A DNA stretch of 64,000 nt from Arbacia lixula (taxonomy: Eukaryota; Echinodermata; Echinoidea; Arbacioida; Arbaciidae), in NCBI GenBank assembly GCA_963669155.1, contig OZ022596.1, positions 2,676,473-2,740,472 on the forward strand, written 5' to 3'. Position numbers and translations under genes: made by a program. A model generated the notes under the pieces. The model was not told the origin of the DNA. It did not search any database and saw only the letters and a list, made by a program, of their open reading frames with translations. Shown here piece by piece: positions 12,201 to 55,900 of this stretch; the first letter of the stretch is position 1, and each line of letters begins with the position of its first letter.

Positions 12201-15200
12201 TGGTGCGTTTATCAACTCCAAAGGCCTTTACGAACGCGTTTCCAAACGTGTTTCCAAACCCGTTTAAAAAACGGTGCGTTTATCAACTCGATCGCCCAAG
12301 TCGAAAACCGGCCTTGTCACCGAAAACATGTGGTTTAAACGTGTTTCAAAACCGCGTTGCGTTTATCTCGCTTCTTTAAACATGTTTAAAATTTAAATAT
12401 AGGATCGCACAAAATTTAAAGGCGTTTGGAAACCTTAATCCTACCCCCCAAAAAAGTTGATAAACACGCCCAAAGTGTCTTGCTGAAGGACACAAGTACA
12501 AACACAAGTAAAGGACACAAGTGCCATGAGTGGGCTTGAACCTGGGACCTTGAGATCTTCAGTCACAGTTCACAACCACTACACCACAACACCTCCACTT
12601 ATTAGGTCTTGTATGTGTATTTTAGGAAGAGGACATGCTGAAGAAGAAACAAGAACAGAAGGAGAACTACAGGAGTATTAGAATTCCTTAGATGCATGGT
12701 TGGGTGGAAATAACTTTGGTCTTTTGTGTGTGTTTTCTTAGGATCGACAGAAGAAGTGGACATGCTGAAGAAGAAACAAGAACAGAAAGAGAACTACAGG
12801 AGTCTTAGAATTCCTTAGTTGCATGGTTTGGTGGAAATAACTTTTGTCTTTTGTGTGTGTTTTAGGATCAACAGAAGAAGTAGACATGCTGAAAAGGAAA
12901 CAAGAACAGAAAGAGAACTACAGGAGTATTAGAATTCTTAGATGCATGGTTGGGTGGAAATAACTTTTGTCTTGTGTGTGTGTGTTTTAGGATCGACAGA
13001 AGAAGTGGACATGCTGAAGAAGAAACAAGCACAGAAAGAGAACTACAGGAGTATTAGAATTCCTTAGTTGCATGGTTGGGTGGAAATAACTTTTGTCTTG
13101 TGTGTGTGTGTTTTAGGATCGACAGAAGAAGTGGACATGCTCAAGAAGAGACAAGAACAGAAAGAGAACTACAGGAGTATTAGAATTCCTTAGTTGCATG
13201 GTTGGGTGGAAATAACTTTTGTCTTGTGTGTGTGTGTTTTAGGATCGACAGAAGAAGTGGACATGCTGAAGAAGAGACTGGAACAGAAAGAGAACTACAG
13301 GAGTATTAGAATTCTTTAGTTGCATGGTTGGGTGGAAATAACTTTTGTCTTGTGTGTGTGTGTTTTAGGATCGACAGAAGAAGTGGACATGCTGAAGAAG
13401 AAACACGAACAAAAAGAGTACTACAGGAGTATTAGAATTCTTTAGTTGCATGGTTGGGTGGAAATAACTTTTGTCTTGTGTGTGTGTGTGTCTTAGGATC
13501 GACAGAAGAAGTAGACATGCTGAAGAAGAAACAAGAACAGAAAGAGAACTACAGGAGTATTAGAGTTCTTTATTTGCATGGTTGGGTGGAAATAACTTTT
13601 GTCTTGTGTGTGTGTATTTTAGGATGGACAGAAGAAGTAGACATGCTGAAGAAGAAACAAGAACAGAAAGAGAACTACAGGAGTATTAGAATTCCTTAGA
13701 TGCATGGTTGGGTGGAAATAACTTTCCTGTAGAAGAACTACAGGAGTATTAGAATTCCTTACTTGCATGGTTGGGTGGAAATAACTTTAGTCTTGTGTGT
13801 GTGTGTGTGTGTGTTTTAGGATCGACAGAAGAAGTGGACATGCTGAAGAAGAGACTGGAACAGACAGAGAAGACGATGGAGAGAATGATGGACATGATGA
13901 ATTCAATGGGCATAGCCATGAACCAGGTCTCGCATCACTTAGCAAGTAAGTATGTGATGAACTCCATGGGCATAGCCATGAACCAGGTCTCGCATCACTT
14001 AGCAAGTAAGTATGAGGAGATAGAGAGTAGGAGAAAGAAGGAGGAGGAGGAGAAGGAAGATGATCATGGAGAAAATTATTGAGATGATGATATGGTTAGG
14101 GTATGGTCCTGAATTTCACATTCGTTTGCAGCAATAAAGTCTCATTTTGACGAAAATTTGAAAAAACGCACGCCTCCAGTGACGTATGAGAAGTCAAAAT
14201 GCCATAGATTGTACGGAAGTCAAAAATAGACCATTTTCGTAATGTATTCACAACTTTCCCCCTAACCGCGTAGTTACGCATTATTGCATTCACCTGTATC
14301 TTGTCATTCAAATTCAATGGATGGAATACACTTTGAATCTATTAGTTGTTGCTACTCAGACAAACCTCGGACAAGCTTTGGGGTTCCCATTGGTAACGTA
14401 TTGTTTGAATTGCGTGAATAATACATTTTATTTACGCCGTTGGCATTTATGGCATTTTGACTTCTCATACGTCACTGGAGGCGTGTGTTTTTTCAAATTT
14501 TCGTCAAAATGAGACAAACGAATGTGAAATTTGTTTTTAGTGGATAATTTTACATAGATTAGTGGGAACTTACTTTCCTAATTTAGTAACCCTTTAAGTA
14601 GCTAATAAGTATGAGGAGACAGAGAGAGAAAGAAGAGGAGAAGGAAGATGATCATGGAGAAAATGAATGAGAGGATGGCATGGTTAGGGTATGGTCGTGA
14701 ACCAGCACATTATGTAGCAAGTAAGTATGAGGAGACAGAGAAAGAGAAAGAGAAAGAAAGAAGAGGAGAAGGAAGATGATCATGGAGAAAATGAATGAGA
14801 GGATGGCATGGTTAGGGTATGGTCGTGAACCAGCACATTATGTAGCGATGTAAGTATGAGGAGAGAGAGAGAGAGGAGAAAGAAGGAGTAGGAGAAGGAA
14901 GAGGAAGTAAATAATTGTAATAATGAACTGATCGAGTATGGTCTTTAATCAGAGTTAAAGAGAAAAAAAAAAAGAGGAGAAGGAAGATGATCATGGAGAA
15001 AATGAATGAGATGATGGTATGGTTGGGATATAGTCGTGAACCAGCACATTAAGTAGCTAATAAGTATGAGGTGAGGAGACAGAGAGAGAAAGAAAGAAAG
15101 AAGAGGAGAAGGAAAACGATCATGGAGAAAATTATTGAGATGATTGTATGGTCCAGAAGTAGCACATTAAGTAGCTAATAAGTATGAGGAGAGAGAGAGA

Positions 15201-52900: not shown

Positions 52901-55900
52901 GAGGGAAGGCAGCAGAAAGCAATGATAAGACACAATGTACTGCATGTTTCTAGATCTCTCTTTCCTTAAAGGGTTACTAGATTAGAAAAATACATTCCCA
53001 CTAAACTATGTAAAATTATCCACTAAAAACAAATTTCCCATTTGTTTGATGCAAAAAGTCTCATTTTGACGAAAATTTGAAAGAACACACGCCTCCAGTG
53101 ACGTATAAGAAGTCAAAATTCCATAGATTGTCTGAAAGTCAACAATAGACCATTTTCGTAATGTATTCACAACTTTCCCCCTAACTACGTAGTAAGACGT
53201 TATTGCAATCACCTGTATCTTGTCATTCAGATTCAATGGATGGAATGCACTTTGAATCTATTAGTTGTTGCTACTCAGAAAAGCCTCGGACAAGCTTTGA
53301 GGTTCCCATTGGTAACGTATTGTTTGAATTGTGTGAAATAAACATTTCATATACGCCGTTGGCATTTATGGCATTTTGGCTTCTCATGCGTCACTCGAGG
53401 CGTGTGTTTTTTCAAATTTTCGTCAAAATGAGACTTTATTGTGGCAAACGAATGTGAAATTCGGTTTTAATATTTGATTTTACATAGATTAGTGGGAACT
53501 TATTTTTCGAATTTAGTAACCCTTTAATTCTCCCTATCGCATATAGCCGATATCAAGCAATATCACCTCATGATACTGATATCTGATCGATTGCTCTTGG
53601 GACATATACCTCCAGTAAGAGTTTGGTACATATTCAATTCATGCAATAACGCACAGAATCAATAAACAATAAATGGCAGGATATGAATAAACTTCACATA
53701 CCTTACAGGACACAACTAAGCCTCAACATGTTGCTAATGTTGATATGAGTAAGATTCTTTTCTTTTTCGGTGGATGTATTATGTTGTTTTAGTTTGTTTT
53801 TGTTCATTGCATGCCATCATCATCATCATCATCATCATCATCATCATCATCATCATCATCATCATCATCATCATCATCATCAATGTTTAAAGTCTATTTT
53901 ACCCAGTTTGTGGGGTTGGACAGTTTATTTCCTTGATGGCCCTCCTCCATACTGCCCTGTCAATTGGATCAATGTGGGTAATGTTCAACACTTTTCTGTG
54001 CTGTTTTTTAACGCTGAATGTGGAATAGAAATGAAAGCATATAAGGAAGTGAGTTGATTACTTACATAATCTTTGTAGAGTTTGTTGGCAAGATGGTTTT
54101 GGACTGCTTCATATTTATTGACCTCATGGAGATTGGACTGGTTTGCATAGTAATCAGATATATCACTCCCTACTGTAGCTTCAACTGATGTAGCTTCCTG
54201 TCAAGGGGAACATAGAAACAACAACAATAGCAGCTATAATCCCCTTCATACACGATAATCAATCAATCGATGATCACAACCCTCCTGTCAAGGGGAACAT
54301 AGACACAACATCAATAACAGCTATAGCCCCATTCATACATGATAATTAATCAATCGATAATCATACTACTGTGGATTCCACTGATGAAGCCTCCTGTAAA
54401 GAGGAACATAGAAACAACAACAATAACAGCTATAGCCCCATTCATACACGATAATTAATCAATCGATTATCATAATCCTACTGTGGATTCCACTGATGTA
54501 GCCTCCTGTCAAGGGGAACATAGAAACAACAACAATAACAGCTATAGCCCCATTCATACACGATAATTAATCAATCGATAATCATAATCCTACTGTGGAT
54601 TCCACTGATGTGGCCTCCTGTCAAAGGGGACATAGACACAACAACAATAACAGCTATAGCCCCATTCATACACAATAATTAATCAATCGATAATTATAAC
54701 CCTACTGTAGCTTCAACGGATGTGGCCTCCTGTCAAGGGGAACATAGACACAACAACAATAACAGCTATAGCCCCATTCATACACAATAATTAATCAATC
54801 GATAATCATAACCCTACTGTGGATTCCACTGATGTGGCCTCCTGTCAAGGGGAACATAGAAACAACAACAAAAACAGCTATAGCCCCATTCATACACGAT
54901 AATTAATCAATCGATAATCATAACCCTATTGTAGCTTCCACTGATGTGGCATCCTGTCAAGAGTAACATAGAAACAACAACAATAACAGCTTTAGCCCCA
55001 TTGATACACAATAATTAATCAATCAATTATCATAACCCTACGGTAGCTTCCACTGATGAGGCCTGTCAAGGGGAACATAGAAACAACAACAATAACAACT
55101 ATAGCCCCGTTCATACACAATAATTAATCAATCGATAATCATAACCCTACTGTAGATTCCACTGATGTAGAGTCCTGTCAAGGGAAACATAGAAACAACA
55201 ACAATAACAGCTATAGCCCCATTCATACACAATAATTAATCAATTGATAATCATAACCCTACTGTAGCTTCGACTGATGTAGCCTCCTGACAAGGGGAAC
55301 ATAGAAACAACAACAATAACAGATATAGCCCCATTCATACATGATAATTAATCAATCCATAATCATAACCCAACTGTAGCTTCTACTGATGTGGCCTCCT
55401 GTCAAGGGGAACATAGAAACAACAACAATAACAGTTATAGCCCTATTCATACACAATAATTAATTAATCGATAATCATAACCCTACTGTGAATTCCACTG
55501 ATGTGGCCTCCTGTCAAGGGGAACATAGACACAACAACAATGACAGCTAGGAGACAAACATAAAAAACAGTGGTATAAAGACAAACAGCCGTATTCATGA
55601 AACCTTACTAGCTTAGGAGCAAACTTAACCTTAGTGAGCTACTTATAGGCCTAGTTACCAAGTATGAAGTACACAGGTGCAAAGAAACAACAACAAATAC
55701 AGGTCAGCAATATATACATAAGAAAAAGAGGAATCTGAAATGATGAGTATAGGGTTTATCATCTAGATACTTAGACCTACCAATATTAAGGGGGGGGGGG
55801 GGGAATGTATCAGTTGGAGATTAAAGGACATATACTGTACTGGGAAGGCAAAAAAGCCTTCAAAATGTAATTGTTAGCAATCTTCTTGCCAATGGTCTTA

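Follow-up and report, generated by a model that had tools for sequence, protein, structure and literature searches.

The 64,000 nucleotides of the sea urchin Arbacia lixula analysed here (GenBank assembly GCA_963669155.1, contig OZ022596.1, positions 2,676,473 to 2,740,472; called the window below) contain two unrelated protein-coding genes, RIC3 and DNMBP, and four long tandem arrays whose repeated unit carries a splice site of one of their exons. RIC3 is complete on the forward strand, with six exons running from the ATG at 6147 to the stop at 17219; its model taken without exon 1 matches the Pfam family RIC3 (E 1.5e-14), and its best orthologues are those of Lytechinus variegatus (59%), Strongylocentrotus purpuratus (57%) and Diadema antillarum (56%). 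DNMBP lies on the reverse strand with its C-terminal third in the window, where tblastn with Lytechinus and Diadema proteins placed its exons from 63461 down to a stop near 31732. The joined exons contain the BAR and SH3 domains according to Pfam, and the best orthologues come from Lytechinus variegatus (75%), Strongylocentrotus purpuratus (73%) and Diadema setosum (75%). The real exons were fixed by splice-aware models and confirmed with orthologue proteins. Both gene names had been proposed in a sequence-only reading of this stretch, made without database searches, and proved correct by Pfam and orthologue matches.

Using Tandem Repeats Finder (TRF) and unit alignments, we found that the four arrays share one design: the unit of 112 to 126 bp is composed of a splice site, 30 to 78 nt of exon and the adjoining intron, and the authentic exon, confirmed by orthologue proteins, sits at one end of the array. 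They concern the acceptor and the donor of RIC3 exon 5, which is flanked on both sides, the donor of the DNMBP exon 37548-37366 and the acceptor of the DNMBP exon 54197-54066. The arrays are 1.2 to 1.6 kb long and carry up to 12 additional copies of the splice site, called decoys below, in which the AG or GT is kept in many but not all units (9/9, 4/8, 9/9 and 12/12, in the order just given); by blastn, the units show about 76 to 98% identity to a reference unit picked from the same array. Tandem repeats across exon-intron borders were named mirages in the amphioxus gene Adh3 and were found also in the globin genes BflGb6 and BflGb9, as described in passages of PMC3087553, and they were later noted in amphioxus TnC (troponin C) and PGBD5, according to passages of PMC3902484. 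With a unit that spans the border (exon part, splice site and intron part), an authentic border at the array end and splice dinucleotides kept in part of the units, the arrays of A. lixula are, judged by their sequence, a structure of this known kind, met here in a sea urchin. The sequence-only reading had announced at least five arrays of one design in the two genes, each with the real exon at one end. The design and the place of the exon were borne out by TRF, unit alignments and orthologues; as for the number, four arrays are clear, while the fifth, beside a DNMBP cassette called P, is present but weaker and diverged.

The acceptor array of RIC3 exon 5 (12626..13880, forward strand; TRF, unit alignment and blastn of a unit) has a unit of about 126 bp, made of about 62 nt of the exon 5 start, the AG and about 62 nt of intron. 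Its nine decoys lie at 12625-13622 with a spacing of about 126 bp, the first one being truncated, and the right edge of the array falls inside exon 5. No tRNA gene was found by ARAGORN to the left of the array in 12440-12680. The authentic exon 5 (13820..13945, forward strand, 126 bp) was defined by the spliced model and by alignment with five echinoderm RIC3 orthologues. The donor array (13868..15488, forward strand; TRF and blastn of a unit) opens with a 60-bp in-frame duplication, placed by TRF at 13895-14014, and goes on with units of about 126 bp comprising the last 78 nt or so of exon 5, the donor and intron. An inserted element at about 14114-14560 splits this array, and a unit of its downstream part (14616-15488) matches exon 5 at 13868-13954 in blastn (69%, E 5e-4) and also 13968-14113. 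Its decoys, located by pattern, have lost the GT in 4 of 8 cases. The first decoy donor has the same context as the authentic donor, CTTAGCAAGTAAGTATG, and keeps the frame; translation with both donors gives a 60-nt extension of exon 5 (13946..14005, forward strand) that would add 20 codons. Two side observations concern this gene: the inserted element and another one at about 52975-53530 look alike by eye, and 9478-9538, absent from the list of the sequence-only reading, is an old copy of the first part of RIC3 exon 4 that has diverged and lost its AG, some 860 bp ahead of the exon itself.

Both DNMBP arrays flank exons of the BAR domain on the reverse strand. The exon at 37366..37548, identified by tblastn with sea urchin DNMBP and by Pfam BAR on the joined exons, is accompanied by the donor array at 36174..37406 (reverse strand; TRF and unit alignments), in which a unit of about 125 bp combines about 40 nt of the exon end, GTGAGAC and intron with C/G tracts. 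This array has nine decoys, a count that excludes five rows in which these units are read again in another register. The exon at 54066..54197 (tblastn and alignment) adjoins the acceptor array at 54196..55549 (reverse strand; TRF, decoy list and blastn), with 12 decoys and a 112-bp unit consisting of about 30 nt of the exon start, CTTGACAG and about 80 nt of intron. The intact exons bearing the mirages align, in each gene, with the orthologues of three sea urchins and two other echinoderms. We saw by eye no insertion resembling the repeat units in the alignments of these five echinoderm orthologues per gene, and the orthologue alignments of RIC3 and DNMBP contain no new segment at the array-bearing exons.

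These arrays are probably mirages that began as tandem duplications across an exon-intron border, then grew and persisted because the intact copy is the one chosen by exon definition; in RIC3 and DNMBP they are most likely harmless, with splicing that would still use the one intact exon. The starting event would be a tandem duplication whose unit happened to straddle the border. When the segment made of the intron tail and the exon head is duplicated, a complete exon would remain beside its own second splice site and a decoy would appear on the intron side, the donor case being the mirror image. In exon definition, the two sites of a short complete exon are paired. Since the exons concerned are short (126, 132 and 183 nt) and have both sites present, this pairing should select the complete exon, and the decoys would be treated as intron. 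An array shielded in this way would be nearly invisible to selection and could gain or lose units toward the intron through slippage or unequal exchange. A duplication across the border followed by tolerance would therefore explain the presence of the real exon at the array end without any border-directed mechanism. The sequence-only reading had called for a mechanism starting duplications at the borders; the need for it is not established, given that random placement of whole arrays predicts 5.2 covered borders and 4 are seen.

Whether the encounter of arrays and borders exceeds chance depends on the null considered: it does not by border count and it does by seed count. The tests were run on 41 exon borders, including those of the doubtful cassettes P and Q, and on 12 arrays, which were obtained from 65 TRF rows by keeping periods of about 60 or more and merging overlaps, micro- and short-period rows being left out. 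The periods of these 12 arrays span 60 to 196 bp, so that the similarity of unit size remarked on earlier holds for the border arrays but is not specific to them. For the point null, the borders were left unfiltered and compared with a background of 2316 points, complexity-filtered and weighted by array length. A local copy with a score of 30 or more was present near 6 of the 41 borders against 7.9 expected, and the five thresholds gave 10, 7, 6, 4 and 4 borders for 9.1, 8.3, 7.9, 6.7 and 6.0 expected. In the random placement of whole arrays, the 4 borders covered correspond to P 0.76 and the 4 arrays touching a border, for 3.0 expected, to P 0.35. The seed null considers one unit-length segment per array, which must straddle exactly one border: 4 of 12 do so, against 0.71 expected in the whole window (P 0.0036) and 1.06 in gene bodies (P 0.016). 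Taking cassette P as a fifth case brings these values to P 0.0003 and 0.0023, and removing two purine-rich arrays leaves 10 seeds, 4 of which straddle a border where 0.61 and 0.90 are expected (P 0.0021 and 0.009). As every array consists of a single segment copied many times, the seed null fits the origin of arrays best, the point and whole-array nulls being weighted by array length. The seed test was post hoc and the window was picked for its pattern, so its P values and the excess that they describe are not to be taken at face value. The statement that chance placement is implausible thus holds by the post hoc seed null, and not by the border count or by whole-array placement.

An earlier set of 25 borders (with 13 or 12 arrays), now superseded by the 41, leaned more to enrichment: the number of arrays in contact with a border had P 0.086, falling to 0.02 when 10 nt of slack was granted and to 0.004 with 35 nt, and four seeds were seen where 0.46 to 0.83 were expected (P 0.0009-0.007). 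On the same 25 borders, a null under which arrays may not contain whole exons yielded P 0.0004; we do not rely on it, most overlaps being forbidden by its construction.

The alternative that fares best is a mutational bias by which duplications start preferentially at exon-intron borders, through replication/transcription conflict, R-loops, polypyrimidine tracts or composition steps. It is compatible with the tolerance part of the explanation given above, and both the seed excess and the recurrence of like cases in amphioxus genes speak in its favor. We nevertheless consider it unlikely, though not negligible, as the borders are no nearer to copies than random points at all five thresholds, whole-array placement is without excess and the pattern was the reason for choosing the window. 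A seeding of the units by microsatellites is not convincing either: simple-repeat runs of at least 10 nt occur in 3 of 10 units, compared with 10.7% of 5000 random segments. A wider version, which we find more doubtful still, holds that the genomes of deuterostomes (cephalochordates and sea urchins) carry a border-directed duplication process which seeds splice-site minisatellites and supplies decoys for alternative donors, such as that adding 20 residues to RIC3, or for duplicated cassettes.

The decoys could also regulate splicing, either as poison sites lowering the output of RIC3 or DNMBP, or by offering exon 5 of RIC3 an alternative donor. As predicted by translation, use of a decoy in the four arrays would mostly lead to a premature stop. 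A stop follows after 18 to 67 codons for 9 of 9 decoy acceptors of RIC3 exon 5, and after 10 to 12 codons for 12 of 12 decoy acceptors of the DNMBP exon 54197-54066. If the DNMBP 37366 donor were skipped, the frame would close at 37353, ahead of the nearest decoy donor; translation continued beyond RIC3 exon 5 would end at a stop at 14080, which is preceded by the first decoy donor alone (exon end at 14005). This second RIC3 donor is the exception, as its use would add the 20 codons in frame, and its context, identical to that of the authentic donor, together with the AG/GT found intact in all decoys of three arrays, is what a regulatory role would lead one to expect. Against this role, the 20 extra residues are in none of the five aligned orthologues and half of the eight RIC3 donor decoys have decayed. 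In addition, the retention of AG/GT is unexceptional because, among all the dinucleotide steps of a unit, 63%, 26% and 25% are equally invariant in the RIC3 acceptor, DNMBP donor and DNMBP acceptor arrays, respectively. These statistics were computed on 8 of the 9 decoys for the RIC3 acceptor (the truncated 12625 was left out) and on 11 of the 12 for the DNMBP acceptor (54284 was left out); the conservation of 0.91 in the latter reflects one gapped row that counts against it, the 12/12 being taken from the decoy list. Selection on the decoys was thus rejected, splice-dinucleotide invariance being not clearly above the unit average and 4 of 8 RIC3 donor decoys being without GT. The sequences give no clear sign that the decoys are maintained, and we judge a regulatory role improbable.

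That the arrays are artefacts of assembly is hardly credible: tandem arrays are hard to assemble, and one amphioxus mirage was aberrantly assembled in the genome draft according to a passage of PMC3087553, but here the units differ within an array, an inserted element lies between the units of one of them and the design is common to four arrays in two genes. For the reading by neutral duplication and tolerance, some results remain uncomfortable. The seed excess at borders, unless it stems from the choice of the window, is greater than plain neutrality predicts, and the unbroken AG/GT in three arrays could fit weak selection too, though the units are related copies.

Beside the four long arrays, several weaker cases exist in DNMBP, all on the reverse strand. 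Cassette P (50542..50619, 78 bp, phase 0) is a possible linker cassette with weak tblastn matches (E 0.77-3.6). Its donor array (50072..50508; TRF and blastn) has 128-bp units with AAGGATTAAA/GTTAGT-like sites and a local score of 29 at offset -128; three units read GGATTAAAGTTAG or differ from it by one base. Two flanks that had been listed as weaker cases did not hold up. Next to the exon 52585-52424, a 165-bp array (52594..52969; TRF and alignment) adjoins the acceptor without copying it, as it begins 9 nt outside and the AG is absent from its copies; the array ascribed to cassette Q is GGGAGG-type low complexity, and Q was rejected as a further mirage. Single decoys that the sequence-only reading had not listed were found at two other exons: a copy of the end of exon 60307-60214 (donor 60213) with an intact GTAAGA lies in the downstream intron (59234..59336; 85.5% over 69 nt), and a degenerate acceptor of the last exon (31908-31735) lies at 31984..32055.

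Other repeats in DNMBP were seen in passing. Two paralogous linker cassettes, Q and R, lie at 47926-47836 and 40594-40502, and P (50619-50542), which resembles them more weakly, is possibly a third paralogue; Q has one extra base after the AG compared to R, which breaks the frame. Q-like and R-like segments of 31 residues occur in series in three sea urchin DNMBP orthologues, and one such segment occurs in two aligned starfish proteins. TRF also reported a 67-bp duplication at 31612-31743, whose last copy reaches the final codons and the stop of DNMBP. An intronic 153-bp array repeated 4.4 times (50692-51370) has a further copy 10 kb away (61272-61350, 80% over 79 nt).

Compared to ordinary intronic minisatellites, the mirages of A. 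lixula are alike in unit size and divergence, as the other arrays of the window illustrate (e.g., the 153-bp array at 50692), and differ in that their unit holds a functional splice site and coding sequence. They also recall the gain of introns by tandem duplication (the Rogers model, cited in PMC3087553), in which, as the abstract of PMC4974935 describes, a duplication crossing the border supplies new splice signals; in the sea urchin, the copies sit inside existing introns and the new sites are putative. The closest system is that of amphioxus, for which passages of PMC3087553 and PMC3902484 give units of 10-72 bp in Adh3, 150-160 bp in BflGb6, 157 bp in BflGb9, and 60 and 108 bp in PGBD5. 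For the amphioxus globins, the passages of PMC3087553 report that RT-PCR (reverse transcription-polymerase chain reaction) suggests regular splicing and that the repeat number differs between haplotypes; together with the Adh3 data, this RT-PCR led to the suggestion that regular splicing goes on undisturbed by mirages, according to passages of PMC3087553 and PMC3902484. The passages of these two articles describe mirages in lancelets only, and the matches listed in a search of the open-access literature include no echinoderm case, which is weak evidence of absence. That four long mirages occur within 64 kb of sea urchin DNA suggests that such arrays may be frequent in a deuterostome phylum other than that of the lancelets. 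In that case, they would offer natural experiments on the way in which the spliceosome passes over as many as twelve almost identical decoys, and the origin of new splice sites by tandem duplication could be tested genome-wide. As far as the amphioxus passages describe them, both systems have a unit spanning the border, an authentic border alongside, AG/GT in many units and cases at 5' as well as 3' borders, whereas the sea urchin mirages, as seen in the sequence, belong to another phylum and to two further genes, extend over 1.2-1.6 kb, number as many as 12 decoys in one array and flank RIC3 exon 5 on both sides.

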